Positions 1 through 17,091 of a stretch of 24,218 nucleotides of DNA are shown piece by piece. Below the pieces are notes generated by a model. The model did not search any database. It was given only the letters and a program-made list of their open reading frames with translations, and was not told the DNA's origin. Position 1 is the first letter of the stretch, and every line of letters starts with the position of its first letter. The translations under genes and the position numbers were made by a program. The stretch is taken from positions 1 through 24,218 of the IMG/VR virus record IMGVR_UViG_3300046532_001882. One strand, written 5' to 3'. This DNA is from a virus.

Positions 1-3000
1 GTAAGAGAGGTTGTGACCGTAACGGCAGCAGGGAGTCCAATTGTTACTGCTGCGGTTTCTGAACCCGATCCGCTTACATCTACCTCATTGGCGGTTCCTG
101 CTACCGTGGCAATGTAATTGCCTGTCGAATCCGTGCCCAAGGCGACAGAATCGGCAGCGATTGTTGCGGTAAGGGTTGCATTGGCCAAATCGGTAATCGT
201 GACGTTGCCTGTGAGGTCACCACCCAAAGTGATTGTGAAATCATCGACGTTAAGGTCGATAGCACCATCACCGGCATCATCGTAAGTAGCGGTGATGCCG
301 GTGTGGGTTCCATTGGTAGCGAGTTGTGCGCCAGATACATCTTGAACAGCCTCAGTAAAGTCTGTGACTGCCGTAGAGGGAATGGCGATTGTGGTGTTCG
401 CCGCAGCAGTCAAACGTCCGTAGGCGTCAACTGTGTAGCCGGGAACTTGGGTGGCGCTGCCATAAGCCGCTGCGGTAACAGCCGTGACGTTTAGCGCAAT
501 GTCGATTGCTCCGTCGCCAGCATCGTCGTAGGCGGCGGTTAGGTGGGTGTGCGAACCGTTCGTGACGATCTGAGCGCCCGTAACGTCCTGAGTGGCTTCC
601 GTGAAGTCCGTGACTGCCGTAGATGGGATGGCAATTGTCGTATTCGATGCTGCCGTCAACCGACCGTAAGTATCGACTGTGTAACCGGGTACTTGAGTCG
701 CACTCCCGTAAGAGGCCGCAGAAGCGCCAGAAGCCGTAAGGGTAAGATCTATGGCTCCGTCGCCAGCATCGTCGTAAGTGGCATCAATCCCGGTATGCGA
801 ACCGTTGGTGGCTACTTGAGCGCCAACGGTATCCTCAATGTGTTCCGTGGCAGCACTCAGGTTTCCAGTCGTAACTACGGTACCCGTAACATTCGGCAGG
901 GTGATCGTGCGATCCGCCGTCGGATCTGTAATCGCTAGAGTTGTCTCATAATCGTCAGCGGTAGCGCCTTCAAATACCAGCGGAGAAGCCCCAGCGACCG
1001 TGCCGCTAAGAGTTGTGATCCCAGTGAAGGTTGCGTTTACGGCACTTACATCTGCCGTAATGGTGAGATCATTTCCGATGGTCACATCGTCAGGCAGACC
1101 AACAGTAACGGCTGCTGTCTCTGAACCGGAGCCAGAAACCTCAACCTCGTTAGCAGTACCAGTAACAGTGGCAAGATAGTTGCCCGTGGTATCAGTCCCA
1201 AGAGCAATCGAATCGGCTTGGATTGTCGTAGCGAGCGTTGCATTGGCCAAATCAGTAATGGTTACGCTGCCCCCGATATCACCAGACAAAGTAATTGTGA
1301 AATCATCGACGTTAAGGTCAATCGCCCCATCGCCAGCATCGTCATAGGTCGCTGCGATACCAGAATGAGTACCGTTCGTAACCAACTGCCCTGCAACAAC
1401 GTCCTGTGTCGCTTCGGTGAAATCTGTAACTGCCGTAGATGGGATAGCAATGGTTGTATTTGCAGCAGCAGTCAAACGACCGTAAGCATCGACGGTGTAA
1501 CCGGGAACTGCCGTGGCACTGCCGTAAGCGGCTGCCGTAACAGCCGTAGTCGCAAGATCAATGTCATCGGCATTTACCACGATGCGGGCAGCACCGGCTG
1601 TTCCAACATTGACTGTGTTACCCGTGATACTGACACCGGTACCGGCGACGAACGCCTGAGTTCCAGTGAACTGTGTGAAATCAACGTCGTGTGTTCCGAC
1701 TGTATGCGGATCACTGGTTGAAGTGACTACAAATCCTTGACCGCCGTTGGCAGACCCTGCCAGAACGTAAACGGCTTCGCCCGCTTTGATCTCACCAGTT
1801 GGTGCGCCATCAAAGTCGGTGGCCCTCGTAAGCACCCATACAGCAGAACCTGACACACCCTGAGCGGTTACATCATAAATACCGTTGTGGGCAGCGGTTG
1901 CCTGATCCTGAACAAGAACCCGATTTCCGGTAGTTGCGTTTGCACCGTCGATGACGAGACGAACCTGTGTCGCTGTAGTCAGGGTTGCCCCTACTCCCGC
2001 AGTTCCATTGTCGTAGGTCGGAGTGTTCGGCAATACCGCAGCAGAGGCGTAGTTGACGGCCTCATGCCAATCAAGACCAGCGATGGCGTTATCGACGTAA
2101 GCCTTGGTTGCAGCATGTGTCGCGTTGGCGACCGCACTAGAGATTGTGACCGACCCGAAGGTGGGAGTATCTGACGCGCCTACGGCTTGTCCGATGGCAA
2201 CGGTCGGGGTTGCAGTTTCTCCACTGTTGTTAGTGAGAGTTACACCAGTGCCAGCAACGAGGCTGGCGGTGTAGTCACCGGTCGTGTCCGTACCTAAGGC
2301 AACTGAGTTCGCTTGGATTGTTGCAGTAAGAGTTGCATCGGCAAGGTCGGTGATCGTGGCACTACCACCGAGATCACCAGCGAGAGTGATCGTGAAGTCA
2401 TCGACATTGAGGTCGATGGCCCCATCGCCAGCGTCGTCATAGGTCGCAGCGATTCCTGAATGAGTACCGTTGGTAACCAACTGGGCAGCGACAGTGTCTT
2501 CAATGTGCTCTGTGGCGGCACTCAGATTTCCAGTCGTGACCACGGTTCCATCAATATTCGGGAATGTGATGGTGCGATCTGCCGTCGGATCTGTAACCGT
2601 CAGAGTGGTTTCAAAATCGTCAGCGGTAGCGCCTTCAAGGACGATAGATGCACCGGAAACATTAATCAGAGGAGTTGTGAGAGAAGTCGTAACAGTTACG
2701 TCGCTAGGCAGCCCGATGGTTACGGCAGCCGTTTCTGAACCGGACCCGGAAACCTCAACCTCGTTGGTAGTACCTGCAACGGTGGCGATGTAGTTGCCGG
2801 TGGTGTCGGTTCCCAACTCTGTCGCATCCGCGACGATGGTCGCAGTCAGCGTTACGTCGGCAAGGTTGGTAACGGTCGTGCTACCGCTCAGATCGCCAGC
2901 CAAGGTGATCGAAAAGTCATCGACATTTAGATCAATGGCACCGTCGCCAGCGTCATCATAGGTAGCACTAATTCCACTGTGCGATCCGTTGGTAACGAAC

Positions 3001-3020
3001 TGAGCGCCAACAATGTCTTC
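1..3020 (-). repeat. Six in-frame copies of a YDDAGDGAID fibre repeat
   Basis: Copies begin at nucleotides 3020, 2501, 1406, 836, 590 and 344 and read toward lower coordinates. Each starts with (E/Q)DxxxxQ(L/V/F)xTNG(T/S)H and continues into YDDAGDGAID. Copies 1, 2, 3 and 6 are long, continuing into NVDDFTITLxGDL and a stretch with LGTD(T/S)TG. Copies 4 and 5 are cut short after the aspartate motif. Copies 3, 5 and 6 are preceded by the AYGRLTAA block and copies 2 and 4 by the GTVVTTGNLS block. The copies differ at many synonymous positions, so they are old or under selection at protein level. Similar YDDAN-type repeats are common in cyanophage-like fibres, where they form trimeric beta-rich shafts. 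Confidence 0.85.
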
Positions 3021-3341
3021 AACACTCTCAGTATTGGCTTCCCATGAGACACCACCAGCAGCACTGCTGTCGGCAACGAGGTGCTGCCCATCGCTTCCTA
3101 CGGCGAGTATCCCAGCCGTATTATCTGCCGTACCGACAACGAGATCGCCTTTAGCGTCGATCAGGTGCTTGCTGATATCACCCAAACCGCCATAATCAAG
3201 AGAGGTCCATGCGGTTGATCCGTCGCCAATCTTGTACTTCTCGTTATCGGATTCATACCCGATTTCCCCGACAGCCATCGTGGGGTTATTAGAAGTCCAG
3301 TTCGCTGCCGTGTCTCTACGAAATTGAATGATTGCTGCCAT
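1..3341 (-). CDS. Large repetitive tail fibre protein, C-terminus beyond window (partial)
   Basis: An open frame runs from the ATG at 3341 to the window edge without a stop, giving at least 1113 residues. The first 50 residues (start MAAIIQFRRDTAANW, then GEIGYE, KIGDG, AWTSL) match the N-terminal domain seen in phage fibres and in the Bordetella phage major tropism determinant, which attaches the fibre to the virion. The rest is a mosaic. A block centred on YDDAGDGAID occurs six times, beginning at residues 108, 281, 646, 836, 918 and 1000. A block with PTADRTIT and GTVVTTGNLS occurs twice, and one with PGYTVDAYGRLTAA three times. Residues about 413-565 hold a KAYVDN...GLDW...NRVLVQDQ module also present in two other proteins here. 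All blocks are in one frame, which confirms a single gene. It follows a small fibre gene by 9 bases. The receptor-binding end is outside the window. Confidence 0.9.
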   Translation of the reverse strand, partial: MAAIIQFRRDTAANWTSNNPTMAVGEIGYESDNEKYKIGDGSTAWTSLDYGGLGDISKHLIDAKGDLVVGTADNTAGILAVGSDGQHLVADSSAAGGVSWEANTESVEDIVGAQFVTNGSHSGISATYDDAGDGAIDLNVDDFSITLAGDLSGSTTVTNLADVTLTATIVADATELGTDTTGNYIATVAGTTNEVEVSGSGSETAAVTIGLPSDVTVTTSLTTPLINVSGASIVLEGATADDFETTLTVTDPTADRTITFPNIDGTVVTTGNLSAATEHIEDTVAAQLVTNGTHSGIAATYDDAGDGAIDLNVDDFTITLAGDLGGSATITDLADATLTATIQANSVALGTDTTGDYTASLVAGTGVTLTNNSGETATPTVAIGQAVGASDTPTFGSVTISSAVANATHAATKAYVDNAIAGLDWHEAVNYASAAVLPNTPTYDNGTAGVGATLTTATQVRLVIDGANATTGNRVLVQDQATAAHNGIYDVTAQGVSGSAVWVLTRATDFDGAPTGEIKAGEAVYVLAGSANGGQGFVVTSTSDPHTVGTHDVDFTQFTGTQAFVAGTGVSITGNTVNVGTAGAARIVVNADDIDLATTAVTAAAYGSATAVPGYTVDAYGRLTAAANTTIAIPSTAVTDFTEATQDVVAGQLVTNGTHSGIAATYDDAGDGAIDLNVDDFTITLSGDIGGSVTITDLANATLATTIQADSIALGTDTTGNYLATVTGTANEVEVSGSGSETAAVTVGLPDDVTIGNDLTITADVSAVNATFTGITTLSGTVAGASPLVFEGATADDYETTLAITDPTADRTITLPNVTGTVVTTGNLSAATEHIEDTVGAQVATNGSHTGIDATYDDAGDGAIDLTLTASGASAASYGSATQVPGYTVDTYGRLTAASNTTIAIPSTAVTDFTEATQDVTGAQIVTNGSHTHLTAAYDDAGDGAIDIALNVTAVTAAAYGSATQVPGYTVDAYGRLTAAANTTIAIPSTAVTDFTEAVQDVSGAQLATNGTHTGITATYDDAGDGAIDLNVDDFTITLGGDLTGNVTITDLANATLTATIAADSVALGTDSTGNYIATVAGTANEVDVSGSGSETAAVTIGLPAAVTVTTSL

Positions 3342-3350
3342 AACTATCCC

Positions 3351-3827: not shown

Positions 3828-5378
3828 TTAACCTGTAACTACCACTCTGTATGCACTGCTCGCTGGAGCAGTAGAGAACGACACAGTGCAAGTGTCTGTG
3901 TCAGTCCTTACAACATCAGTAATCACTGTGTCATAAGAAGAATTGTCATACACCTGAACCGACACATCGCGAGTACCTAAACCATGTGTAATAACGAACG
4001 ATGTAGCCGAAGCATTGCCAACACTTTGAGCCACAATCCGGCCCAAAACTGGAGCAATGGTGCTTCGTGAAGAACCCGAACTATCCCCAATAGCCAAGAA
4101 GGCGTTGCTTCGGGCTAGAGCAGACGTTGTAGTGCCAGTACCACCATTGGCGATAGGCAAAGTTCCAGTTACGCCACCTGAACCACTTCCTGCCAAATCG
4201 GAGGCATCAGCGGAAAGAACACCGGAAGTAAAGGTAATACCGGTACCAGCGATATCAGACTTGATCGCCAAACCACTACTCGTTGTGGTTAGACCAGAAA
4301 TACCAGAATTAAGTTTGATTTGAAGACTGTCAGAGGAAGTCTCAATACCTCCAGCGGCAATCACGTTGATCGACAAAACACCACTTGCAATTGCAAGACC
4401 GTCGCCCGCAGCCGTGGTCGAAATCGAAAGAACACCACTTGAGTATGTAATCCCGTCCCCAGCAGTGGTACTAGCGAGAGCAACATCGTTAGCGTTGACC
4501 GTGATGCCATCCCCGGCGACCACATTGAGAGTGTCGCCACTCTTAGTTAGACCAGCACCAGCGTCGATTTGGCCAGCACCTGAGAATTGTGAGAAAACCA
4601 GATCATCGGTGCCGATCGTGTAAGACCCGCCACCCGTCTTGGCTTGAAGCACATAACCCCGGTTGGCATTCGCCGTGCCTCGTTCTACGAAGAAGAAAGC
4701 ACCAGCCGTAGCCTCTGCCGAAGTATCAAAATCTGTGGCTCGTGTTGGAGCGCCAGAAGCGTTTACCGTATAAACACCATTTTCAGAAGCGTCAGCCTGA
4801 TCTTTAAGCAGAACCCTGTTTCCTGTTGCGAGAGTAATCCCGTCAATGGCGTCACCGTTCTCAAAACCACTAGCAAGGGTTCCCGCAGCCGTTGTAGCAA
4901 CAACAACTGATTCTTTTGGATCTAAACCAGCGGCACGATCATCGACATAACCCTTATTGGCTGCATCAGCGGCATCAGTTGGTGCCGCCAAGCCAGTAAC
5001 TTTCGTAACATTGACAGCATTGCTGCCATCACGCTTCATAATCGTAGAAGCGGTATCAGCCTCAGTAGCGTTGTTGACTAGCGTATAATGCGCTGTGGGC
5101 ATAAGCCCGTCAGTGGAACCATTGGCATTAGCAACGGCTATCGCCGGAGCACCCGTCGATCCGGAAGTAACAGTAAGTGCTGTAGTCCCAGAAGAAACCC
5201 CAGTTACAATCTGTTTCCACGCAGAACCGTTATAAAGTTTGAGAATATTGTTGGTTGAATCATAAATCGTCCAACCTTCGAACTCTCCGGAACCGGGATC
5301 GCCAGCAGAGAACTGCAACTTCGCGTTCTGAAGTTCGTTCTGGTTTAGATTTAGATTAGTAACAAACTTTTGTGCCAT
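3828..5378 (-). CDS. Tail fibre protein
   Basis: 516 residues, ATG start. The N-terminus (MAQKFVTNLNLNQNELQNAK) and the following STNNILKLYNGSAW resemble fibre attachment regions. Residues 88-130 contain DGLMPTAHYTLVNNATEADT. Residues about 134-285 carry the KGYVDDRAAGLDPKESV...NRVLLKDQADASENGVYTV module that also occurs in gpJ and in the largest fibre. Residues about 287-400 are tandem GDGIT..SGVLSI repeats. LPIANGGTGTTTSAL at 407-421 is a classic fibre motif. The C-terminal 60 residues (ITHGLGTRDVSVQVYDN, then AYRVVV) form a small beta domain typical of cyanophage-type fibres. It likely forms a trimeric fibre or shaft for host recognition. It is 13 bases downstream of the 161-residue gene and sits in the same run of tail genes. 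Confidence 0.88.
   Translation of the reverse strand: MAQKFVTNLNLNQNELQNAKLQFSAGDPGSGEFEGWTIYDSTNNILKLYNGSAWKQIVTGVSSGTTALTVTSGSTGAPAIAVANANGSTDGLMPTAHYTLVNNATEADTASTIMKRDGSNAVNVTKVTGLAAPTDAADAANKGYVDDRAAGLDPKESVVVATTAAGTLASGFENGDAIDGITLATGNRVLLKDQADASENGVYTVNASGAPTRATDFDTSAEATAGAFFFVERGTANANRGYVLQAKTGGGSYTIGTDDLVFSQFSGAGQIDAGAGLTKSGDTLNVVAGDGITVNANDVALASTTAGDGITYSSGVLSISTTAAGDGLAIASGVLSINVIAAGGIETSSDSLQIKLNSGISGLTTTSSGLAIKSDIAGTGITFTSGVLSADASDLAGSGSGGVTGTLPIANGGTGTTTSALARSNAFLAIGDSSGSSRSTIAPVLGRIVAQSVGNASATSFVITHGLGTRDVSVQVYDNSSYDTVITDVVRTDTDTCTVSFSTAPASSAYRVVVTG
4179..4520 (-). repeat. Tandem GDGIT/SGVLSI repeats in fibre gene
   Basis: Within residues about 287-400 of the 516-residue fibre, a unit of about 20 residues recurs with the core (A)GDGIT..SGVLSI. 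Clear copies are at AGDGITVNANDVAL, AGDGITYSSGVLSI, AGDGLAIASGVLSI and AGTGITFTSGVLSA, with more diverged copies (SSDSLQIKL, TSSGLAIKS) between them. Such repeats build elongated beta-helical or triple-beta shafts, and copy number can vary between related phages. Confidence 0.75.
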
Positions 5379-5391
5379 GTCAACCCCGGAA

Positions 5392-5877
5392 CTACGTCAA
5401 ATAAGCCGATCCTGAAAATGCCGCAGAAAACGTCACAGTAACCTGCGTATCTGAGTTGTATTGTACATCACCTACCACGACTGTACCGGTAGAATCTACA
5501 ACAGTTACCGAAGGGCGACCACCTAAAGTGTGTACAACCGTCCAAGTCGTTGCTGCCGATCCTTGCGTATGAATATACCGATCGGCCCCAGTCAACGTAA
5601 TGTACGTTGCAGGCCATGCTCCACTTGCTTTTGGACCGTATAAACGAGCCTCCCCGCTTGCAGCAATCTGCCAGATATACCAATTTCCATCAGCCCCAGT
5701 AAGAACAGCAGGTGCCGTAACACCAGTCAACAGCCCGCCCTGTTGACCACCAGCAGTAGCGAGAACCTTCACATAAATTTTGTTTGGGGCAGCGGCAGAT
5801 GTAGTAACAATATTACGCGATTCCTCTGCCGTAATATTATTTAAAACTTCTGCAACGTATACCGTATAATCACTCAT
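5392..5877 (-). CDS. Tail-associated protein with C-terminal HxLG beta domain
   Basis: 161 residues. The start ATG overlaps the stop of the preceding gene by four bases (ATGA), indicating translational coupling. The last 60 residues (HTLGGRPSVTVVDSTGTVVV, then YNSDTQVTVTFSAAFSGSAYL) match a small C-terminal domain that recurs in phage tail proteins, usually written as HNLGKYPSVTVVD...FSGKAYLN. The middle (GLLTGVTAPAVLTGADGNWY) is unassigned. By context it is a small fibre, tail-tip or collar protein. No enzymatic motif is visible. Confidence 0.65.
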   Translation of the reverse strand: MSDYTVYVAEVLNNITAEESRNIVTTSAAAPNKIYVKVLATAGGQQGGLLTGVTAPAVLTGADGNWYIWQIAASGEARLYGPKASGAWPATYITLTGADRYIHTQGSAATTWTVVHTLGGRPSVTVVDSTGTVVVGDVQYNSDTQVTVTFSAAFSGSAYLT

Positions 5878-6221
5878 GTCGTTACATTCTCATCAAGATT
5901 AAAAAGACCTTGCAATAATCTTTCCACTACAGCAGTAGCACCAATCAACTCTAAATCATATATGCCACTGAACTGTAGCGCCGCAGTATCCGCAGCACTT
6001 ATCGTCAAACTCACCGTTCCCGTATCCGGGTTAATCACAATCCGACCATTCTCCGTGGTCAATTCAATTAAAGCAGCGGACGCTGCTAAATCCTTACGCA
6101 CCTGCATACGGGCCGTATAGCCCGCCAAAGTACGAATACTGTCATCAAAATTCGTTACCTCTACCTCACGAGTGAAAGTAGCGCCTTGTTCACAAGTAAA
6201 ATTATAGATACCGGCAGGCAT
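5874..6221 (-). CDS. Small phage tail-region protein (beta-sandwich-like)
   Basis: 115 residues. It begins MPAGIYNFTCEQGATFTREV and contains LAGYTARMQVR at about 52-62 and TGTVSLTISAADTAAL at about 86-101. This pattern (QGATF, then GYTARMQ(V/I)R, then an IS..DTA.L stretch, then YDLEL) is a recurrent small protein of tailed phages, found near tail fibre and baseplate genes. Its role is unknown to me, although a structural or baseplate-associated part is likely. GAGG lies 7 bases before the ATG. It overlaps the next gene by ATGA. Confidence 0.6.
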   Translation of the reverse strand: MPAGIYNFTCEQGATFTREVEVTNFDDSIRTLAGYTARMQVRKDLAASAALIELTTENGRIVINPDTGTVSLTISAADTAALQFSGIYDLELIGATAVVERLLQGLFNLDENVTT

Positions 6222-6257
6222 TTAAAGACCTCATTAAAGATAGTTTGGAAAATCTAC

Positions 6258-6273
6258 TCTGTGCCTTCACAGA
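6258..6273 (-). other. Short perfect stem-loop between genes
   Basis: In the 74-base gap between the 86- and 115-residue genes there is a 6-bp perfect stem (TCTGTG/CACAGA) with a 4-base loop. Downstream on the minus strand there is only a short ATTTT run, about six bases after the stem, so intrinsic termination is doubtful. It might be an mRNA processing or stability element. I rate it as weak. Confidence 0.25.
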
Positions 6274-6295
6274 TCTCCCCTTTAAACAGTGTACA

Positions 6296-6556
6296 TCATT
6301 CATTAGTTATATCTGGGTTAAAGTTGGGGTTATAAAACTGGTCATCAAAAAACCGTTCCCCATATTGCAACAACCCATAAACCGCCCACGGTGTAGCAGT
6401 GGGACTCGTGGAAACAAGCAGGGTGTTTCCTTCATCTGTCATAACCTCTGCGATCACAACATAGTCCTTGACAACGGCGGGGAGACCCTCGCCCATTTTG
6501 TCAGCAATCTCTATATCAACGATTTGCTTGCAAGGATCATCAGGTTCGTCTGTCAT
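6296..6556 (-). CDS. Hypothetical small acidic protein
   Basis: 86 residues, acidic (start MTDEPDDPCKQIVDIEIADK), with a predicted helix-rich middle (GEGLPAVVKDYVVIAEVMTD), TPWAVYGLLQYG at about 55-66 and an Asn/Asp/Phe-rich tail. I do not recognise a family. It is the last gene of the accessory enzyme cassette or the first of the next tail block, with 21 bases to the DUF6065-like gene. A GGAG lies about 12 bases before the ATG, farther than usual. The opposite-strand frame of 105 codons here has no supporting features. Confidence 0.5.
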   Translation of the reverse strand: MTDEPDDPCKQIVDIEIADKMGEGLPAVVKDYVVIAEVMTDEGNTLLVSTSPTATPWAVYGLLQYGERFFDDQFYNPNFNPDITNE

Positions 6557-6577
6557 GAATAGATGTTACTCCATCTC

Positions 6578-7327
6578 TTAAAGATCAGCGTCAGTAACTC
6601 TTTGATGTTTACGATAGAGACCCTTCATGGAGAACTTACTTATCGACCCATGGTTTTGACCCCGTGCATTTCCATCTCTAAACATCCCTGCATCACCAAG
6701 AATTATGTCTTTGATTTGATCGTTGCGTTTAAAAGGAATTAGATGATAGATCGGAGTACCCGCCTTGATTACAAAGGTTTCATCAGTCATCACCCGTAAA
6801 ACGACATGCATACTGTGGTAATAATCTGAATGAACCACTCCCGGTAGCACTTGATATCTGGGATCAGGCTCATAGGCGACAGGCAGACAAAGCATTGAAT
6901 AGCCGGGAGCAGTTTTAAACAAAAATGGGTTAACGATTTTAGGCCAATGTGCTTTAGGCCGATCCCTGTCATCATTGATGGGGCAACCGCGAGTGGCCTT
7001 ATAGGGAAATCCCTCCACACGGAAAGCCCTGTCGCTGGTTTCGGCCATCACATCTTCTGCACCCATCGGGCCGACCCGAATATCACACCACAACGGAACC
7101 GTTAGCCCCTGAGTTAAATACTCTTGAATACCCTTGCAACTATTGATAGTGCCGGGTTCCAAAATTTCTTCGTTCTTGAACCATTCCGGCCACCCGGAAC
7201 CATTCACATACGGAGGAAATTCCAACAGTCGATTGTCACTCGGGACGACAAGGACTTCTCCGGGTTTGACCTTTGGCCAATCCCCGTAATATCTAATTTT
7301 GTGTAAGTTCTTTAAGCGTTTCAGCAT
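6578..7327 (-). CDS. DUF6065-like protein of the enzyme cassette
   Basis: 249 residues. Its ATG lies 35 bases inside the 3' end of the halogenase gene, so the two are translationally linked. Residues 73-82 (GLTVPLWCDI) and about 128-200 (W128, NPFLFKTAPGYSMLCLP, then PGVVHSDYY, then IKAGTPIYHLIPFKR) fit the pattern W...NP...(T/K)(P/A)PGYS.L...PG.V.TD.Y......I..GTP..H.IPF.R that I associate with DUF6065-type proteins. These proteins lack a firmly assigned activity. The pattern suggests a compact beta-barrel, but no metal triad or nucleotide motif is obvious. Conserved-looking residues in this stretch include H166, D168, H171, H174 and H195. Its place next to a halogenase and two oxygenases suggests that it works with them. 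Partner, substrate-binding or tailoring enzyme are all possible. Confidence 0.5.
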   Translation of the reverse strand: MLKRLKNLHKIRYYGDWPKVKPGEVLVVPSDNRLLEFPPYVNGSGWPEWFKNEEILEPGTINSCKGIQEYLTQGLTVPLWCDIRVGPMGAEDVMAETSDRAFRVEGFPYKATRGCPINDDRDRPKAHWPKIVNPFLFKTAPGYSMLCLPVAYEPDPRYQVLPGVVHSDYYHSMHVVLRVMTDETFVIKAGTPIYHLIPFKRNDQIKDIILGDAGMFRDGNARGQNHGSISKFSMKGLYRKHQRVTDADL

Positions 7328-8777
7328 GATCTTTCACCGGTTGAGAATTTCGCGATTCACGCAAATTCCATAAGTAGTTATCGGTCACATCGTTCAAACC
7401 TAACGCATCAATCGAATCTTGTGCTGCTTTTCGACTAATCACTCCCTGCCCTTGCCCCACATAATAGAAATGTGGAAAGCCAAACAAATTCCACATCCCG
7501 TGGACATCCGACTCCACAGGCGCTCTTTCAGCCCAAACACCTAACAAGTGTTCCAACTCTTCCGGCATCGGCATTTCCTGCTGTGCAATCCAGAATGGGG
7601 AATCATCACGATCCGATATGTAATGCAACCTGATCATGCTAAGAATGTTCAACATCATCTTTTCAAACGTGTGGTTGTATTCCTTCGCCACCCATGTGTG
7701 ACCTTTCCGAAAAGACGCCAATGGTGCTATTAAAGCAAAACATTGATTAATCGTAGTTCCGATAGAAGTCGCTTCCAGCGGTTCAACAAATGAACCAGAC
7801 AGTCCGATTGCAACACAGTTACCTACCCACGCTTTTTCTAAATAGCCGGGATCGAACTTGAATTGTTTGAAGTCCGATAGTTGGTCGTCCAACAATTCTT
7901 CCATTTCATGAACTGCTTCCCCTTCTGAGCAGTGTTGAGAAGAATAGACGTAACCATTTCCTCGTTCTATCTGCGTGGGGATCTCCCAAGCCCAGCCCGA
8001 TTTCATCGCTCGCGAACGGGTATAGGGTCTGATTTGTCCGCTTTCATCTGGTGGGGTTCGGAAAGCAATAGCAGAATCGGTCAATAGATACTTTCCAAAC
8101 GAATTCCATTTCTCATCCGGCAAACGCGACATGAGAACTCTATTGAACCCAGATGCATCAATCCAAAAGTCGGAAGTGAGTTTTTCTCCGTCTGCGAGTT
8201 CGACACTCCCAACCCACTCTTCCGAAACGTTGACTTTTTTGACTTCTCCATCAACGAACTTGATTCCTCGTGCCTTTGCTTTAGAAACAAAGAAATCGTT
8301 AAGTTCTTGAGTGTCAAAATGAAACTGGTTCACACCACGGTGGGGATAGACCGCCTGTACTTTGTTCTCCCGTATCCCCAAAGGAGAAATAGCATCTGTC
8401 ATCAATGTTCCATTGACGATCAATTTCGCATAGGCAGCATTGAAATTAAATACGAATGGGGGATTATCAGGTAACCCGGAAATTGAATGAAAATAATCTG
8501 GAGTGTGATTTGTCCAGTCTTCAAACCGGATACCTTTTTTATGAGTTCCCAAAGTCGCTATCAACAACTCAGCGACAGGAATCTCCACAAAGTTCATAAA
8601 ACTCAACCAATGTTCAGTTGAGCCTTCCCCCACCCCAATAGTGCCAATCTTGTCAGATTTGACAACTGTTATCTCATAATCAGCAAACGCACGACGTAGC
8701 ACTAGGGCGCAAACTAAACCTGCGTTCCCGCCACCAACGATTGTTACGCACCTACGCGCAAGATTGGTTCCTTGCAT
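7293..8777 (-). CDS. Flavin-dependent tryptophan-halogenase-family protein
   Basis: 494 residues. The FAD-binding GGGNAG is at 15-20 after a beta strand. GVGEGSTEHW follows at 48-57. K80 in GTHKKGIRFEDW aligns with the catalytic lysine of PrnA-type halogenases. The family signature GWAWEIP is at 261-267. VEPLEATSIG at 331-340 supplies the glutamate (E335) of the active site. All diagnostic motifs are intact and the length is near the usual 500-540, so an active enzyme is expected. Known members use FADH2 (from a separate reductase), O2 and halide to form HOCl/HOBr or HOI and halogenate an indole or phenol. Cyanophage Syn10 encodes one such enzyme (VirX1). No flavin reductase is visible here, so the host would have to supply FADH2. 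The gene abuts the oxygenase gene (TAAATG). Substrate and halide are unknown. Confidence 0.92.
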   Translation of the reverse strand: MQGTNLARRCVTIVGGGNAGLVCALVLRRAFADYEITVVKSDKIGTIGVGEGSTEHWLSFMNFVEIPVAELLIATLGTHKKGIRFEDWTNHTPDYFHSISGLPDNPPFVFNFNAAYAKLIVNGTLMTDAISPLGIRENKVQAVYPHRGVNQFHFDTQELNDFFVSKAKARGIKFVDGEVKKVNVSEEWVGSVELADGEKLTSDFWIDASGFNRVLMSRLPDEKWNSFGKYLLTDSAIAFRTPPDESGQIRPYTRSRAMKSGWAWEIPTQIERGNGYVYSSQHCSEGEAVHEMEELLDDQLSDFKQFKFDPGYLEKAWVGNCVAIGLSGSFVEPLEATSIGTTINQCFALIAPLASFRKGHTWVAKEYNHTFEKMMLNILSMIRLHYISDRDDSPFWIAQQEMPMPEELEHLLGVWAERAPVESDVHGMWNLFGFPHFYYVGQGQGVISRKAAQDSIDALGLNDVTDNYLWNLRESRNSQPVKDHAETLKELTQN

Positions 8778-9380
8778 TTACCTAAACCAAGTTACAAGAG
8801 AATATTTTGTTCCTTTTTCCACCGGGTGAGCAATATGGGCATAAGGGAAATTGGAAGGAAACAACGCTACTGTCCCCGCTGTAGGTTCAATCGTCACTTT
8901 CTGGTGAGGGAATTCCAATTGACCACCCTCAAAATCATCATTTAAGAAAAGCACCATACTCAACGCTCTCGAATTTTGAGCATGATGATCATGATGGATT
9001 CGATACTCTGCCTTGTTTTGATAACGGATAGCCCTAAATCCCTCATCAGCACACAATGAGAGATCATAAACTCGTCTGAAATTATTAACCAACTGATCTA
9101 ATGCCGCTTGAAATTCTTCCATTTCCTGCTGCAAAGCATCAAAATCAGGATCATTGAAATCCACATGGGCGAAACAACCCAACTCAGACTCAACGCTGCT
9201 CCTATGCTCATTCGCACCTTGATGATCTCCAACACCCGTCCGTGAACGAGTCCACGCTGTAGGGGAGTACTCCAATTCAGCCGCTTCGTTTATTAGCGCC
9301 AGCAACTTTGGGGCGTTCTCGTACCATCCTTCGTGGACGAACATCCCCGGTGCTGGGTTTAAAAGTGTGTCGGATGACAT
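8778..9380 (-). CDS. 2-oxoglutarate/Fe(II) oxygenase, prolyl-4-hydroxylase-like
   Basis: 200 residues, forming a compact double-stranded beta-helix dioxygenase domain. The HxD iron ligands are H129 and D131 (YRIHHDHH), the distal histidine is H182 (AHIAHPVEKGTKYSL), and K192 in GTKYSLVTWF is placed to bind 2-oxoglutarate. EGGQLEFP at 151-158 and TAGTVALFPS at 167-176 are typical of the P4H/PKHD group. Members hydroxylate proline or other residues in peptides, or small molecules, using O2 and 2-oxoglutarate. The start is fixed by a strong AAGGAG 5 bases upstream, inside the end of the previous gene (22-base overlap). It is directly followed by the halogenase. Substrate is unknown. The adjacent adhesin rich in X-Pro-Gly is a candidate by proximity only. 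Confidence 0.88.
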   Translation of the reverse strand: MSSDTLLNPAPGMFVHEGWYENAPKLLALINEAAELEYSPTAWTRSRTGVGDHQGANEHRSSVESELGCFAHVDFNDPDFDALQQEMEEFQAALDQLVNNFRRVYDLSLCADEGFRAIRYQNKAEYRIHHDHHAQNSRALSMVLFLNDDFEGGQLEFPHQKVTIEPTAGTVALFPSNFPYAHIAHPVEKGTKYSLVTWFR

Positions 9381-10192
9381 GGAAACTCCTTCGTATTAGT
9401 AGCACTTACAACTTTATGACTTGCATCTCTTTTCAATTCCACAAACATATTACCGCCTACCCAAGGGGCACGCGGCCACAGCCATTCGTCGGGAGCGGCT
9501 CGTGGAAGTCTTCTGAAATCTCCTTGATTGAATACAGTCAAGTTCGCTATCCGATTCCCGGCAAGTACTGTTTCCACCCCGTGTGCATACAGGTAGTTGG
9601 CTGGATACATCATCGTGTCGCCCCTTTGGGGGGCGTATTCAATGTCCAGATAAGGCAAATACACTTCCCCTCCCGTGTATTCGTAAGGGCCGGGATTGTC
9701 GTGTTCCACATAGTTGCTGAAAAAAGTGATGCAAACAAGTAAACGAGTAGGTGCCACAGGATCGGTGTACTCAGAGCGTAGGGCTTTGATCGTTCCGGGG
9801 GTGTTATCTGAATGCGCCCCCATTTTGGCACCCGAAACATAATTCAATAACCTGTGGGCTTCCTGCCATTGAAGATCATTAAACAAACATGGATACAGGT
9901 TTCCGTATTCGACAAGACATTCTAAATATACGTCTTGAAGATCAAGCATAAAGGCATCGTAAGGATCGTCTTTGTCCCAATCATCACCATTGGGTGTGTG
10001 CGAAACACGCATCGGCAAATTTCTGTTTTCGTAGTACTTTCGTTTTTCTGGGTCTTGTCTGCCGTCGTCACGCCACTCGCTGCCGCGTTCTACCCTGTAA
10101 CGATGATCCCACATTTCTGGAATAAACGCATCTTCGTATTCGATGCTGTTGTGCCAAACAGTTACACCGGGAGCAATGATTTCTAAATCCAT
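9359..10192 (-). CDS. Second 2-oxoglutarate/Fe(II) oxygenase
   Basis: 277 residues. The iron triad appears as H127-x-D129 (AHSDN) and H204 (YAHGVE), with R214 (GNRIANLTVF) placed to hold 2-oxoglutarate. TGGEVYLPYLDIEYAPQRGD at 173-192 is the usual strand pair between the ligands. The N-terminal 110 residues (WDHRYRVERG, RQDPEKRKYY) have no counterpart in the neighbouring oxygenase, and the two share little outside the core, so they are not a recent duplication. The C-terminal 45 residues (WLWPRAPWVGGNMFVELK) extend past the core. The gene starts 2 bases after the stop of the 148-residue gene and overlaps the next oxygenase gene by 22 bases. Hydroxylation of a protein side chain or small molecule is likely, but the substrate is unknown. 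Confidence 0.85.
   Translation of the reverse strand: MDLEIIAPGVTVWHNSIEYEDAFIPEMWDHRYRVERGSEWRDDGRQDPEKRKYYENRNLPMRVSHTPNGDDWDKDDPYDAFMLDLQDVYLECLVEYGNLYPCLFNDLQWQEAHRLLNYVSGAKMGAHSDNTPGTIKALRSEYTDPVAPTRLLVCITFFSNYVEHDNPGPYEYTGGEVYLPYLDIEYAPQRGDTMMYPANYLYAHGVETVLAGNRIANLTVFNQGDFRRLPRAAPDEWLWPRAPWVGGNMFVELKRDASHKVVSATNTKEFPCHPTHF
9386..9391 (-). promoter_or_regulatory. Strong ribosome binding site of the 200-residue oxygenase
   Basis: AAGGAG lies 5 bases before the ATG at 9380, inside the last codons of the upstream oxygenase gene. It is one of the best Shine-Dalgarno matches in the window and decides the start of the downstream gene. Confidence 0.75.
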
Positions 10193-10194
10193 AA

Positions 10195-10641
10195 TCAGTC
10201 CGCGTAAACATAGACAGTATCGGTGTTCAACTCTTTACCATCTCTAGTTACCGTGAACCGATATTTACCAATCTTTTCAAAAGTTATGATCCATCTGGCT
10301 CTTGATGCCTCAACCCATTGAGGTTCAAGGTTTTCAAATAGAACTTCCTTAGAACGAACATTCTCAACTTTAAATTTCAAAGACCCTTTTCTTAAATCGT
10401 CATGCTCGTGGACCATTAGAAAAACAGCCACCGTGCCAGCGACAAAATCATCTTGACTGCGTTCCACATGTGATATTTCCGGCAGTTTCACAATGTCTGC
10501 CGTTTCAGGGAACACGAAATCAGGGTAATCGGTTTTTAATCTTTCCGAAATCCCATGAATTATTGGAAGTTGCCACAAAGTAGCCTCTTTGACGTAAGGC
10601 TCTGTATCTTCTTCCACTGGAACATAAAATAAAGTCTTCAT
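10195..10641 (-). CDS. Unknown protein at head of enzyme cassette
   Basis: 148 residues. I do not recognise a family. Residues about 68-146 (VAGTVAVFLMVHEHDD, then FKVENVRSKEVLFENL, then GKYRFTVTRDGKEL, then YVYAD) read as alternating strands of an Ig-like beta sandwich. The first 60 residues are mixed, with PETADIVKLPEIS. There is no signal peptide or catalytic signature. It abuts the stop of the glycine/histidine-rich adhesin gene (TAA then ATG) and is 2 bases before the first oxygenase gene, so it is co-translated with both. It could be an adhesin cap or chaperone, or a substrate-presenting partner of the oxygenases, and the sequence does not decide which. Confidence 0.55.
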   Translation of the reverse strand: MKTLFYVPVEEDTEPYVKEATLWQLPIIHGISERLKTDYPDFVFPETADIVKLPEISHVERSQDDFVAGTVAVFLMVHEHDDLRKGSLKFKVENVRSKEVLFENLEPQWVEASRARWIITFEKIGKYRFTVTRDGKELNTDTVYVYAD

Positions 10642-12183
10642 TTAAATATTGGCAGTATCTAGGGCAATCAGTCTGCCATTAACTCCTGTGTTTAAAGAAT
10701 AACTCGGTGTGCCCGCTTTTCTGGTGACCACAATCAAAACTCCGCCACCTCCACGACCGCCACGTTGCCCTGTATAACCTGTTCCCCCCGCTCCACCTGT
10801 GTAGACCCCAGCAGGAGTGTGGTTGGGAACGGAAGGATTGGCACCGGTATGCGAACCGGGATTGCCCGGAGTTGTATGCGACGTTCCATGATGGTTCGTA
10901 GTGGAATCGTGAACTCCGGAGTTACCCGCCGTCACGCCTAAAGTATGATTGGTCAAAATGTTCAGGTTGCCGCCTGTACTTGCGTGGGCAATTTCCATGT
11001 TCGTATTGAAATTGGCATACGGGTTGCCCGGATTGACGTTACCCGGCTGATAAGTATGGTTTGTAGGGTTGTGGTTACCTGAATGGTGTCCACTGGGACT
11101 TGGATCGTTATGAACCGGAGGGTTTTGAGTGCCGGGAATGGGAATGTGTTGACCGGGGTTATGACCGGGATTGTTCACACCTGACGGACCCGGACTTAAA
11201 GCCTCATGATGATTGGTGTGATGATTCACCGGATTCGTGTTGCCCGGAGATGTCCCCGCAGTGTGAAAATAAGTCGGATCGTTTGACCAAGGGTTACCCG
11301 GACTCACACCAGAACCGTGGCCCGTTCCATGAACATCAGCGTTTGTGAAGTTGTGTGTATAAGGGTTGCCGGGAGTCACACTGTGATGAGAAGGGAAAGG
11401 ACTATCAGGTGCAGGAGTACCTCCCGTACCTGCTGATCCGGTAACACCTCCACCGCCTTCAGAATAGATGCCACCCGCACCAGAAATAACGCGAGCAGAA
11501 ACCATAACTACCCCGCCGCCACGGCCTCCCGTTCCGCCTGAACCGCCAGTTCCTGCCGTACCGCGTCCACCGGGAACACCCACAGTGCCCGAATCCGATG
11601 GATGCTGACCTGCCGTACCCGTACCATCAACGCCATCCGCTCCCGTACCTCCGCCTGCTCCGCCTTTTACACGAAAGAAGTTGGACCCACGCTGCTTATA
11701 AGAGTTGATGGCATCCCGCAAATCAAAGAAATCGTTAGATGACACACCGACAGAACTATTGACTGCCCCTGAACCCGAAAAGGTGTAACCCGGAACGTAA
11801 CCATCTGGTTCACCGGCACCACCCAAACCATCAGTAATACTCGTGCCAATTCCTACGGTCCCCGCCAAGGAACCCGTAGTGACACTTGCAACTGCTTCTT
11901 TAACACCAATATCACCAGTTAGAGTCAAAGTGTTCTTAACGAATACTCTAAAACCATTAGGGTTCAGCGTTGCACCAGTATTAACAGTCAAATTGCCGTA
12001 ATACATATCTTCCGTAAGAGAAGTATCTGAAGTGATTGTCACATCACCATCATCTCCACTACCGAAAATCAACTCTCCATCAAATTGGAGATCGCCAAAT
12101 TCGTCCTCAGGCAGCATTTCGACTGCATAAGGAAGTAGATCCTTATCTCTACGAACACCCTGATCGTATTTCGGATCAGCCAT
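10642..12183 (-). CDS. Glycine-rich adhesin with His/Asn/Pro/Gly block
   Basis: 513 residues. Residues about 36-95 (DGDVTITSDTSLTEDMYYGN, then LNPNGFRVFVKNTLTL) form an attachment or beta-solenoid module shared with the 218-residue neighbour and common in aquatic phage and bacterial proteins. Residues 173-257 are glycine-rich (GGRGTAGTGGSGGTGGRGGG) and are followed by a VVMVSARVI strand, as in polyglycine adhesins. Residues 258-458 are a low-complexity block with 25 histidines and many Asn-Pro-Gly and Pro-Gly-Asn-Pro turns. A second Gly-rich stretch at 462-481 and a strand GVLIVV close the fold. The protein is likely a receptor-binding or fibre-tip protein. The C-terminus ends in LIALDTANI. 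It starts by a TGATG overlap after its paralogue. The His/Asn/Pro/Gly block is unusual and is treated separately. Confidence 0.75.
   Translation of the reverse strand: MADPKYDQGVRRDKDLLPYAVEMLPEDEFGDLQFDGELIFGSGDDGDVTITSDTSLTEDMYYGNLTVNTGATLNPNGFRVFVKNTLTLTGDIGVKEAVASVTTGSLAGTVGIGTSITDGLGGAGEPDGYVPGYTFSGSGAVNSSVGVSSNDFFDLRDAINSYKQRGSNFFRVKGGAGGGTGADGVDGTGTAGQHPSDSGTVGVPGGRGTAGTGGSGGTGGRGGGVVMVSARVISGAGGIYSEGGGGVTGSAGTGGTPAPDSPFPSHHSVTPGNPYTHNFTNADVHGTGHGSGVSPGNPWSNDPTYFHTAGTSPGNTNPVNHHTNHHEALSPGPSGVNNPGHNPGQHIPIPGTQNPPVHNDPSPSGHHSGNHNPTNHTYQPGNVNPGNPYANFNTNMEIAHASTGGNLNILTNHTLGVTAGNSGVHDSTTNHHGTSHTTPGNPGSHTGANPSVPNHTPAGVYTGGAGGTGYTGQRGGRGGGGVLIVVTRKAGTPSYSLNTGVNGRLIALDTANI
10810..11412 (-). 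repeat. Degenerate PGNP/NPGH repeat block in adhesin
   Basis: This encodes residues 258-458 of the 513-residue adhesin. Degenerate units built on PGNP, NPGN, NPGH and HNP recur at irregular spacing, with aromatic residues (PYTHNF, PWSND, PTYFHT, PYANFN) at intervals. There are 11 X-Pro-Gly triplets: TPGN twice, SPGN twice, SPGP, NPGH, NPGQ, IPGT, QPGN, NPGN and NPGS. The plus strand shows the matching repeated GGGTT(A/G)CCCGG-type word. Such repeats could expand or contract by slippage or recombination. Confidence 0.75.
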
Positions 12184-12839
12184 CAGTCCGCCTCTAAGAA
12201 GTAAGCATTCCCCGCAGAACCGGTGCCTGCACCAGCCGCGCTAAGGGTATAAGAATGACTTTTATCTGAAGAAATCAAAAACAGAACACCGCCACCAGCA
12301 TCACCTGACGCCGTAGCCGAGATATTTCCATTTCCGAACAGATAACGAGCACAAACGATTACTACACCGCCCCCATAATTTGTTCCATCGCCCGCTCCAC
12401 CTTTCAAGAGATTAATAGTTCCCGTAGCGGGATCAAACGAATAGCCATCAACAGCGTTTAACGGATTCTTGTACCATTTCGTTCCGCCCAAAGCGGCAGT
12501 AGGAGCCGTCACTGTGTGACTTGTCGATGCCCCACCTAAAGAGTTGGTTACAGCAGCAGATTGTGAACCGATACCCAAAGAACCCTGAGCCGCAGGGCCA
12601 GCCGTCATTCCAATCGTTCCATTCAAATACAAGTTTCGTTGAACAAACACGCGATAACCCGCAGTGTTCAAAGTTTTCGCCGCATCAACGGTAAGATCTA
12701 AATAGTATTTATCTTCTGTAAGAGTTGTATTCGCGCTAATAGTTGCAGAAGCATCCTCCCCACTTCCAAAGATATGGGAAGGAGAATCATAAAAATCCGC
12801 AAGAGCATCGGGAGCGCCGAGCCTGACCAGCCGCCCCAT
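12183..12839 (-). CDS. Small glycine-rich adhesin-like protein
   Basis: 218 residues, paralogous to the next gene. Residues about 22-78 repeat its N-terminal module (FGSGED, TTLTEDKYYLDLTVD, LNTAGYRVFV, LNGTIG). A short Gly-rich segment follows (GGAGDGTNYGGGVVIVCARY, about 146-165), then GDAGGGVLFLIS, and it ends in YFLEAD. It lacks the His/Asn/Pro/Gly block of the larger protein. AGGAG stands 8 bases before the ATG, inside the end of the preceding gene. It is probably a tail-tip or fibre component that shares an attachment site with the larger paralogue. The pair may be alternative or stacked adhesins. Confidence 0.65.
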   Translation of the reverse strand: MGRLVRLGAPDALADFYDSPSHIFGSGEDASATISANTTLTEDKYYLDLTVDAAKTLNTAGYRVFVQRNLYLNGTIGMTAGPAAQGSLGIGSQSAAVTNSLGGASTSHTVTAPTAALGGTKWYKNPLNAVDGYSFDPATGTINLLKGGAGDGTNYGGGVVIVCARYLFGNGNISATASGDAGGGVLFLISSDKSHSYTLSAAGAGTGSAGNAYFLEAD

Positions 12840-13896: not shown

Positions 13897-16800
13897 TTAA
13901 GTAGGCAATGTCTGACGCACTCTCTCCATATCTGCGACAGATAATGCTTCTTTAAACAATGCCATATGATTGAACTGCCACCCCGGCTCGTTGTCCGTAT
14001 GGAAAACAATATTTGAAGCGGGAGTACCAGTCTGAGTATTTAATCCACTCAGCGTGGTATCCGCAGCATTTGCTACCAACGTACCATTTGCATACAAATA
14101 AATCTTCCCACCCGATACGTCACGAACAAAACCTATATGGTTCCATTGTCCGATACGGGAAGTATCATTCCAAGTCACAGAACTAGTATTTCTAGCAGTA
14201 TCTGAAGAGTCGTATTTGTCATTCACATAACAAGTCACACCACTACCGGTGAACTTGAGTTGCACATTATTGTGCTTGAATACCCAATTGTCATTACCGC
14301 TGTCAGTTTTGAACCTTCGATAATGCAAAGAAAAAGAGATATCATCAGCAAGCCCAACACCGAGATTAGGAGCCAATCCCGCCCCTTCTCTATTGGTTTG
14401 AATCAAATCTCTATCAACGATTGAGGAAAACTCATAATCGTCTGACGATTCCCAAGCCCGGTTGATAGTCCACGTTCCGCTTGCAGAATCGGTTCCGGTA
14501 CTAGTCGTGATCGTATGTGTCGTAATGACGCTGGGTAAGAATGTATAAGTTTTGGTTCCCACCACTGCGATTGATTTAATCTGTTTACCACCGTAAGTCG
14601 CAGCAGTCCAAGTGAATGTAGTTGCAGTACCACTTCCCGTGGCAGTAGTTCCATCAGTGTAGGTCGCTGTCCAATTGTAAGAATCGGAATCCATTCCTGA
14701 AACTACAAGACTGTCACCAGCACTACTCTGATTCCCAAGATACAAATAGTCGGTTCCCGTGTGCGGCAGTCCGATCCAATTTGACAGAGGGACAGGAGAG
14801 GCTTCGTAAGTAATATTAAACTGACAAGTATTAGCATCTTTGTTAAGTGTTGAATCTTGATCAAAATCGTCTATGCCGTCATAAAGTTCCGTGATAACGC
14901 TGGCTGATGTTCCGGTCGTTCCCGTGTAAGTAGTCAGATTCAAATCTGCAACAGAAGACAATAAGAACCCAGAATATTGACTGTCCAACGCTCCATCATT
15001 GACGATTCCCCTATAGCCGACAATCCCATTACCATTATGAGCAACCTTGAAGAAGACGCTCGCTAAGGAATTATCATAAACATTTGGAGATGCCAAAGAC
15101 ACTGAGTTGATCAAATAAGTTGTCGGATGACAAACATCAATCATTGATGGACCAACATAGAACTTAGTTGTAGAAGCAGTCACCGAGATGCGTATCCAAC
15201 GATCTCCTACAGTAGTGAAATCGTATTCAACAGGATCACTCGCAGCAGCGTAAGCGGTAGAAGCAGCGGAACCTGAAGCACCGGTTAGATACTTCAAAAC
15301 TCCAGTTTCGTCAACCACGCAAGCCCTATAATTGGCATTTCCAGACGTACCCTGTTCAAATAAAACAGTGTCTGCACTGTTGCCATAACTGATATCACTT
15401 ACATGAAAAATATAATCAACAGTCGTACCTGATAAACCAGTGTTTAACGCTGGCAAACTGATATGGGCACCTGACCCAGTTACTGAACTGGGGTAAAATC
15501 CGAATCCCCTGTTGTAACGTGCCCCCGCAATAACCCCGTACTGCGAAGCCTTTGGATCAGAAATACCGCTATTCACTAGACAGAGATGACGACCAGAACC
15601 AGTTTGATCTGGAATCGCAGGTGCGGCATTGCTTCCAAAACGAAAAACCGTTTTGTCATCAGCAGATACCGCAGAACCCGGAACGTTCTTTTCTAAAAAC
15701 ACTTTAGGTTCGTAAGCGAACTCCCCTGCATCGGCAGGACGAGAAGACTGACTTCCAAATACTCCCGACGATAAAGTCGGTGCCATTTCCAATTCAACAC
15801 GAGTTCCCGCTGGATCAGGATCAACATCAGGATCAAAAATGTATTTGACCAAATGTGGAGATTCCCTATCCGGTGTTTTAATTCTGTGAAAATAACTAGC
15901 AGGTGTTTTCGTATCTAAGATGGTTCCAAGATAAGAACGCATCGCTGCTGGCTGACCGGCATTCAATCCATTGAAAGCATATTTGATTTGATTCCTGTAA
16001 GAATCAATATCTTCATAAACAGAAGACCTAGCAGCCACCCAAGTACAAGAATCATCACCTGATTCTCCATCAATCAAATCAATTTGTTGCCAAGTTGTAC
16101 TATCCAGATCTGTGTCCCAACCCTGTAAAGAAATCCACATACTCAAACCCGTATACGGATTAATAAGTGTCACCCCGACTGTTTGAGCAAGCCAAGATAA
16201 ATGTTCTTTTTTTGCTATTAGAGGATCAGTTAATTTAGATGTTTTTTCTACACCAGTGTTCGTGTCTTCAGCCCGAACATAAACCCAATCTCGTAAATCT
16301 TCACCAATAGTTATCCCATAAGCAAAAGCACTCGCCAAATACTTTTTGGTAACAAGTTTTTGCTCATTAGCACGACGTGTTGATGACTTCTCATCAGCAT
16401 GACGAATGAACTCAGGCAACAATCTGTAAGTTGTGTTAATGGTCGGATTATTTAAAATTCCACTAGTTTTGATTGCTGAGATATCAGTAAGCAAAAACCC
16501 CTGACCACCCGCCGTTGCAGATTCAACGAAATACGAAACCCTCGCATAGTTCGCGCCGGTTGGAATCCAAAATCTAATTGCACTAGCAACATTTGGTACT
16601 TCCGGATTCCTGTACCCATATGGATACAGTTCCATTGTCATCGGTACAGATACCGGATTTTCCGTAGTAGCCGTATCGGGAGTCACAAACTTGTACTGAT
16701 GCGTCTCATCTGTCGCGGTCCATTGACCCGAAACTTCTCTTTCTCCCACATAGTCCATTGCAGTTCCAACACTGCCAGAACTAACAGAAAAATATTCAAC

Positions 16801-17091
16801 TTTTATTCTGAGCGTTTTCCCAGCGAGCAACGAACCTATGGTGAAAATACCTGAAACCTTGAATGACTCCGTCGCGTCCACAGCAAACAGGGGAGACACA
16901 ACACCCAACTCCCCAGAACCATTTGCATAAATCAGAAAACCATCCGTTTGGACACTGCTATACAACGAAAGGGCTTGCGCTCCAATATCAGACATTTGCT
17001 TGATGGTCGCGTTAGTGGCACTGTATTTAATAGCATTAAAAATGCTACCGTCTATTTTAAGTAGATTCTTAGATATAATCGTATCCGGCAT
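13897..17091 (-). CDS. gpI-like baseplate protein fused to lectin-like domains
   Basis: 1064 residues. Residues about 45-205 look like a carbohydrate-binding-module beta sandwich (SFKVSGIFTIGSL, then RFWIPTGANYARVSYFV). Residues about 222-400 (LLPEFIRHADEK, then AYGITIGEDLRDWVY, then HLSWLAQTVGV, WDTDLD, YRNQIKYAFN) read like the P2 gpI / tail protein I family, which forms the outer baseplate and carries fibres. Residues about 555-720 and about 880-1060 look like two concanavalin A-like (LamG) domains; the last has WNHIGFVRDVSGGKIYLYAN and ends in ALFKEALSVADMERV, a typical closing helix. The gene abuts gpJ (TAAATG), the canonical P2 order J-I. The normal gpI is about 180-250 residues, so this one is greatly enlarged. 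The lectin domains probably bind surface glycans. The gpI assignment rests partly on gene order. Confidence 0.72.
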   Translation of the reverse strand: MPDTIISKNLLKIDGSIFNAIKYSATNATIKQMSDIGAQALSLYSSVQTDGFLIYANGSGELGVVSPLFAVDATESFKVSGIFTIGSLLAGKTLRIKVEYFSVSSGSVGTAMDYVGEREVSGQWTATDETHQYKFVTPDTATTENPVSVPMTMELYPYGYRNPEVPNVASAIRFWIPTGANYARVSYFVESATAGGQGFLLTDISAIKTSGILNNPTINTTYRLLPEFIRHADEKSSTRRANEQKLVTKKYLASAFAYGITIGEDLRDWVYVRAEDTNTGVEKTSKLTDPLIAKKEHLSWLAQTVGVTLINPYTGLSMWISLQGWDTDLDSTTWQQIDLIDGESGDDSCTWVAARSSVYEDIDSYRNQIKYAFNGLNAGQPAAMRSYLGTILDTKTPASYFHRIKTPDRESPHLVKYIFDPDVDPDPAGTRVELEMAPTLSSGVFGSQSSRPADAGEFAYEPKVFLEKNVPGSAVSADDKTVFRFGSNAAPAIPDQTGSGRHLCLVNSGISDPKASQYGVIAGARYNRGFGFYPSSVTGSGAHISLPALNTGLSGTTVDYIFHVSDISYGNSADTVLFEQGTSGNANYRACVVDETGVLKYLTGASGSAASTAYAAASDPVEYDFTTVGDRWIRISVTASTTKFYVGPSMIDVCHPTTYLINSVSLASPNVYDNSLASVFFKVAHNGNGIVGYRGIVNDGALDSQYSGFLLSSVADLNLTTYTGTTGTSASVITELYDGIDDFDQDSTLNKDANTCQFNITYEASPVPLSNWIGLPHTGTDYLYLGNQSSAGDSLVVSGMDSDSYNWTATYTDGTTATGSGTATTFTWTAATYGGKQIKSIAVVGTKTYTFLPSVITTHTITTSTGTDSASGTWTINRAWESSDDYEFSSIVDRDLIQTNREGAGLAPNLGVGLADDISFSLHYRRFKTDSGNDNWVFKHNNVQLKFTGSGVTCYVNDKYDSSDTARNTSSVTWNDTSRIGQWNHIGFVRDVSGGKIYLYANGTLVANAADTTLSGLNTQTGTPASNIVFHTDNEPGWQFNHMALFKEALSVADMERVRQTLPT

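Follow-up and report, generated by a model that had tools for sequence, protein, structure and literature searches.

Gene content of the halogenase-oxygenase unit

The genes considered here lie in a 24,218-base stretch of viral DNA that is the complete IMG/VR record IMGVR_UViG_3300046532_001882 (hereafter, the window). Five mechanically called genes on its minus strand encode, in reading order, a 148-residue protein with an immunoglobulin-like (Ig-like) part (10195..10641), a divergent 2-oxoglutarate (2OG)-Fe(II) oxygenase (9359..10192), a prolyl-4-hydroxylase-like 2OG-Fe(II) oxygenase (8778..9380), a 494-residue flavin-dependent halogenase (7293..8777) and a 249-residue protein of dUTPase fold (6578..7327). 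Coordinates and junctions (a 2-base gap, a 22-base overlap, an abutment and a 35-base overlap) are exactly those of the original prediction, which had taken these genes as one modification pathway, perhaps for the phage's own adhesins. The gene for a 513-residue glycine-rich adhesin (10642..12183, minus strand) directly abuts the gene starting at 10641 and thus belongs to the same gene run.

By its sequence, the product of 7293..8777 is a true flavin-dependent halogenase: it matches PF04820 (E = 1e-100), its best matches in the PDB are halogenases including VirX1 (6frl, E = 1e-55), and its motifs are intact (GGGNAG, K80, WAWEIP and E335). A viral scan with the single halogenase protein returned the same phage only, so we turned to profiles. 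The scans retain the 80 best among several hundred matches, and the halogenase set comprises 46 nonredundant loci (at 80% identity, a threshold picked in this analysis) with a median pairwise identity of 47%. K80 and E335, which correspond to the catalytic lysine and glutamate (K79 and E346 of PrnA), are invariant in all 46 relatives, as are the three glycines of the FAD-binding GxGxxG, while the second tryptophan of the WxWxIP motif is phenylalanine in seven of them. Weak NCBIfam matches, far under the family cut-offs, were also found to QhpG (5e-12) and LodB (3e-6), distantly related flavoproteins that act on protein side chains in quinone-cofactor biogenesis; their genomic context differs, but because of these distant matches a protein substrate is plausible for the halogenase.

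Both oxygenases likewise keep their catalytic motifs, as had been predicted for all three oxidative enzymes. The one at 8778..9380, by sequence a 2OG oxygenase resembling prolyl-4-hydroxylases, matches PF13640 above the cut-off (E = 1e-16) and the prolyl-4-hydroxylase structures 3itq/5hv0 (E = 3e-7). Its motif is H129xD131, H182 and K192; among 100 relatives the His and Asp of HxD are kept in 99 and 98, the distal His in 97 and the 2OG-binding Lys in 87. The oxygenase at 9359..10192 carries an HSD...H...R motif (H127xD129, a distal His and an Arg) despite a PF13640 score under the cut-off (E = 1e-4).

The last gene of the unit, 6578..7327, belongs to PHROG_7084, and its AlphaFold (AF2) model (pLDDT 86.8) has a dUTPase fold, with Z of about 11 and dUTPases as nearly all of the listed matches. 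The catalytic Asp of dUTPase motif III is replaced by His, and we rejected a working dUTPase because this Asp is missing. Of 105 copies of the family that adjoin a halogenase, 102 have His or Asn at this position (67 His, 35 Asn; the other 3 have Asp), compared to Asp or Glu in 168 of the 170 copies elsewhere with a readable motif (His or Asn in 2 of 170). Thus, a distinct subclass of the dUTPase-like family goes with the halogenase. Membership in DUF6065 was also rejected, as PF19541 was not matched even at E < 10. The label "DUF6065-like" given by the original prediction survives as a remote likeness: 8 of 46 relatives weakly match PF19541 (best E = 0.004), profile-profile comparison (hhalign) gives a probability of 40%, and PGYS...GTP motifs are common to both, but the window protein has lost the catalytic Asp and scores below the Pfam cut-offs. 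A true DUF6065 gene (E = 4e-42) does occur about 12 kb from it in the same phage, on an overlapping contig (G001, IMG/VR record IMGVR_UViG_3300047669_001396).

The dUTPase-like family is wider than this unit, and tandem copies stand beside 2OG genes too. In haloarchaeal tailed viruses (L003, L012, L013, L052, L083-L085, L090), a dUTPase-like gene lies a few genes from putative adhesin or tail-fibre genes, on the opposite strand. We do not favour a role in DNA hypermodification, to which a weak Tet_JBP match (0.0013) and haloviral copies near thymidylate synthase might point: the genes are linked to adhesins, and those haloviral copies have tail adhesins nearby as well. A bacterial home for the family was rejected as well, since the scan gave three contigs from metagenome-assembled genomes (MAGs), two of them clearly phage.

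The adhesin (10642..12183) consists of a conserved N-terminal domain and Gly-rich blocks, between which lies a hypervariable, low-complexity insert rich in His, Asn, Gly and Pro (approximately residues 265-460). The highest His fraction within 60 residues is 0.18 in the window adhesin and has a median of 0.30 in 39 relatives, with inserts reaching 30-45% His; at a threshold of 15% His per 60 residues, also picked in this analysis, 36 of 39 nonredundant halogenase-locus adhesins were His-rich, compared to 6 of 448 other proteins from the same loci. Gly-rich motifs around hypervariable segments are the architecture of the T-even gp38 adhesins, and in gp38 of T-even phages, S16 and PP01 such motifs flank the hypervariable regions that set host specificity (PMC12892980). 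Compared by sequence, the adhesin described here differs in its huge low-complexity His-rich insert and in having an enzyme cassette attached; tblastn with the adhesin of a relative (L132) against 50,697 phage records, run under the low-complexity filter, gave zero matches. A second Gly-rich adhesin-like protein of 218 residues, without the insert (12183..12839, minus strand; family A7), is kept beside the first. On the other side, the product of 10195..10641 was modelled (AF2, pLDDT 95) as a small N-terminal part followed by a filamin/Ig-like beta sandwich (residues 55-148; Z of about 11 to filamin/Ig domains), an arrangement so common that the model tells little about function.

Linkage of the cassette to the adhesin and its insert

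The compared contigs are fragments, and we found exact or near-exact gene order in ten loci that are 62-65% identical, and the core order across dozens of more divergent loci; since the order recurs, chance is excluded. The order in close relatives is fibre, Gly-rich protein, adhesin, Ig-like protein, 2OG oxygenase, 2OG oxygenase, halogenase, dUTPase-like protein and fibres; in two of these relatives (L096, L106), neither the Ig-like gene nor the divergent oxygenase is present. In the full halogenase set, a dUTPase-like gene lies directly downstream of the halogenase in an overlapping frame at 39 of 46 loci, a 2OG gene lies at most four genes upstream at 36 of 46, the Ig-like family is present at 30 of 46, and a Gly-rich adhesin lies at most six genes upstream at 34 of 43. 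The reverse search, for which the query was limited to the first 130 residues of the adhesin, gave 79 new loci. In each of the 63 that extend far enough, a halogenase was found downstream; the remaining 16 contigs stop no more than 1.6 kb from the adhesin. Of 63 halogenase loci with space for both, the dUTPase-like gene and a His-rich adhesin were present together in 50, the dUTPase-like gene alone in six, neither in seven, and a His-rich adhesin alone in none. Thus, the genes travel together beside the Gly-rich adhesin in a near-obligate linkage and are not scattered independently, an outcome that would have refuted the original prediction.

A scan centred on a halogenase-free adhesin recovered some 45 related loci without a halogenase. 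They keep the adhesin pair, followed by 2OG genes and one to three dUTPase-like genes, and in many of them by an Ig-like gene too. Over 85 nonredundant adhesin loci, dUTPase-like genes were present in 83, 2OG genes in 81 and the Ig-like family in 69. Some of the halogenase-free loci encode a PF11397 GlcNAc-transferase (E = 5e-30); the remaining class has extra oxygenases and, in one scanned member, an FkbM methyltransferase. The modification gene set is thus larger than the five genes and modular: the halogenase is optional, and related loci have a GlcNAc-transferase or a methyltransferase instead.

The composition of the adhesin insert follows the type of cassette. Inserts contain 15.7% His with the halogenase, 0.0% with the PF11397 transferase, where they are rich in Thr, Asn, Pro and Tyr, and 5.6% in the remaining class, where they are rich in Asn, Tyr and Ser. 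A His-rich insert was present at 61 of 62 nonredundant loci with a halogenase, compared to 3 of 23 without, a difference whose nominal Fisher P of 3e-15 overstates the significance, since the phages concerned are all relatives; two of the three exceptions have a halogenase elsewhere in the locus.

The transferase loci bear on what kind of molecule is modified. The Skp1 GlcNAc-transferase is a member of the PF11397 family. In the Skp1 pathway of Dictyostelium and Toxoplasma, a sugar is added to a hydroxyproline made by a 2OG prolyl hydroxylase (PMC11570480), and in the sister cassettes a 2OG prolyl-hydroxylase-like enzyme similarly adjoins a PF11397 transferase. The two side by side point to protein modification, although the sister cassettes differ in being phage-borne and beside adhesins, the putative substrate, and the window has a halogenase and not a transferase. 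Loci with a prolyl-4-hydroxylase-like enzyme and Skp1-type PF11397 transferases beside the same adhesin family are L032, L300-L308, L325, L328 and L336. The cassettes of L309-L344 have several 2OG genes, two dUTPase-like genes and, in the member scanned, the FkbM methyltransferase gene; NPTNYG and YSYG repeats make up their adhesin inserts, which have an HTHYHWH core.

A candidate virion-tailoring cassette

We propose a virion-tailoring role for the cassette, by hydroxylation and halogenation of the insert of the adhesin, and assign this reading a probability of roughly 0.6. The enzymes would act post-translationally on the Gly-rich adhesin, whose gene comes just before theirs, and mainly on its low-complexity, His-rich insert. 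The oxygenases would act first, hydroxylating side chains (of proline or of another residue); the halogenase, which depends on FADH2 and would draw reduced flavin and halide from the host, would then halogenate electron-rich aromatic residues (histidine, tyrosine). The dUTPase-fold protein, whose frame overlaps the end of the halogenase gene, would be, we infer, a dedicated noncatalytic partner that binds the substrate or the enzyme; the Ig-like protein may help in presentation or assembly of the adhesin, and the decorated tip would finally contact the host receptor. A broader version, tentative at present, is that the tip resembles the precursor of a ribosomally synthesized and post-translationally modified peptide, on which an exchangeable adjacent cassette and class-specific dUTPase-fold adaptors write hydroxyl, halogen, sugar or methyl groups, such that host specificity would lie partly in covalent chemistry, including halogenated histidines.

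Halogenases and 2OG enzymes of phages are commonly interpreted as auxiliary metabolic genes (PMC3037559, PMC8940887, PMC10452541), and those of the cassette might accordingly halogenate and oxidise a host metabolite, with the position behind the adhesin being inherited synteny. The cyanophage halogenases do sit among unrelated genes, and within one phage lineage the linkage may have been inherited; however, the linkage holds while the halogenases diverge to about 47% identity, and the cassette is swapped for glycosyl- or methyltransferases while the adhesin stays, with insert composition tracking the cassette. We therefore consider this alternative unlikely. Another possibility is that the insert is an unmodified metal-binding tip, comparable to the HxH iron sites of tail needles, and that the cassette modifies a host receptor or competing virion surfaces. 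A content of 30-45% His per 60 residues is typical for metal binding, but this explanation, which seems improbable to us, does not account for the His-free related adhesins that have the same oxygenases and dUTPase-like genes. Nor do we think it probable that the PF04820 enzyme is no halogenase but oxygenates or cross-links the adhesin in the manner of QhpG and LodB: the matches to these side-chain enzymes would suit such an activity, but the Lys and Glu of true halogenases are present in all 46 relatives, and the nearest structures are those of halogenases.

Several observations weigh against the tailoring of the adhesin. The cassette is described here from its genes, and we infer its chemistry from them. 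Beside the halogenase, we identified no gene for a flavin reductase, and halogenases of the same clade occur away from this adhesin (L128, L161, L168, L378). We found no His-rich protein near the halogenase at L128, L168, L171 and L172 or at the cyanophage loci. Furthermore, halogenase presence changes only once in the adhesin tree (support 90/67), only about one independent pair is informative in the halogenase tree, and terminase and capsid are 63-69% identical across most of the halogenase phages tested; the correlation between His and halogenase is thus nearly one evolutionary event, however long maintained. For the same terminase and capsid identities, transfer of the unit between unrelated phages is unsupported.

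VirX1 and the other cyanophage halogenases (Syn10, S-H38, P-SSM2) are similarly phage-encoded PF04820 proteins, often with a 2OG enzyme nearby, but they are at most 42% identical, and the annotated loci that we examined have neither a dUTPase-like partner nor a His-rich adhesin within 6 kb. Cultured phages gave distant halogenases only, and those examined had no dUTPase-like partner alongside. Thus, the original idea of one pathway for the phage's own adhesins gains from the linkage of the genes beside the adhesin, but the modification system is larger and modular and its arrangement is not that of VirX1-type cyanophage loci. Our literature search found no description of a halogenase-hydroxylase cassette tied in this near-obligate way to an adhesin whose insert composition matches the cassette. 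Phages are known to encode glycosylation of their virions; to our knowledge, halogenation of their own proteins is not known. The cassette occurs in an uncultured lineage of aquatic phages, and its place next to the adhesin suggests that these phages chemically decorate their own host-recognition protein. So far, viral halogenases have been interpreted as metabolic genes with no substrate assigned, and the adjoining adhesin offers a testable protein substrate, for which the sister adhesins with another cassette and a non-His-rich insert are matched natural controls. If the reading is true, it would add a chemical layer to phage host recognition, would account for the many oxygenases of some aquatic phages, and would provide halogenases and hydroxylases active on peptides of low complexity.

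Minor variations of the halogenase locus were also noted. Loci L071 and L036 have two halogenases around one dUTPase-like gene, or two dUTPase-like genes around the halogenase. In a Gammaproteobacteria MAG contig that looks chromosomal (G002:C12, locus L220, 8175-13758), a 2OG gene, a halogenase and a TonB-receptor-like gene are consecutive, a row that is possibly a cellular parallel to the phage cassette.

The surrounding phage genome and its relatives

The genes flanking the unit all lie on the minus strand. Upstream of the adhesins are a baseplate J-like protein (17092..18738; TIGR02243, E = 4e-12, below the cut-off) and a 1064-residue fibre protein on the baseplate side, conserved in order (13897..17091). 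Downstream are an 86-residue protein conserved in close relatives (6296..6556), a 115-residue tail-assembly-associated protein (5874..6221; PHROG_1084/3304), a 516-residue tail or virion structural fibre protein with PHROG head-decoration and fibre matches (3828..5378), and the start of a giant tail fibre of about 1780 residues in all (3..3350), which runs on in contig G001 and ends at G001:19283.

Contig G001 overlaps bases 1-8407 of the window with five substitutions and no indel; four substitutions are synonymous and one is V28I in the dUTPase-like gene. All five lie in the halogenase and dUTPase-like genes (window 7241-7680), and G001 ends inside the halogenase. It adds 21 kb on the left of the phage, comprising the rest of the giant fibre, a (PP[FHY]F)n protein and an oxygenase array (2455-19280). 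The array includes seven PF13640 proteins above the cut-off and two below, one 2OG-FeII_Oxy_5 and three TauD proteins, as well as two GSHPx-domain proteins (one below the cut-off), a thioesterase and the true DUF6065 protein; these approximately 13 2OG/TauD enzymes and the two of the window bring the phage to about 15. Thus, the predicted lack of other metabolic genes around the unit holds within the window, but not for the phage.

Judged by capsid, the closest relatives in culture are Gordonia phages (about 47% identity). T4-like ancestry was rejected, as gp23 is missing in 16 of 17 relatives tested and the single match, L074, is a locus found via the dUTPase-like family. Two longer, syntenic relatives of 72.8 and 62.3 kb (G002:C3 and C75; L211-L218) are binned in one Gammaproteobacteria MAG; a gene check on the longer contig identified it as a contractile-tailed phage with portal, protease, capsid, sheath, terminase and ribonucleotide reductase genes. 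The halogenase match of G002:C3 carries one in-frame TAA near its end. The order of the oxygenase array recurs in about 30 viral contigs (L010 and L011 among the loci). The (PP[FHY]F)n protein (G001 18786-19280; L019, L177, L096 and others) is PASTA-like, with the repeats forming a long tail, and adjoins the array in nearly all contigs covering the spot; a search of cultured phages under the low-complexity filter gave zero matches to it, and it is a possible substrate of a prolyl hydroxylase.

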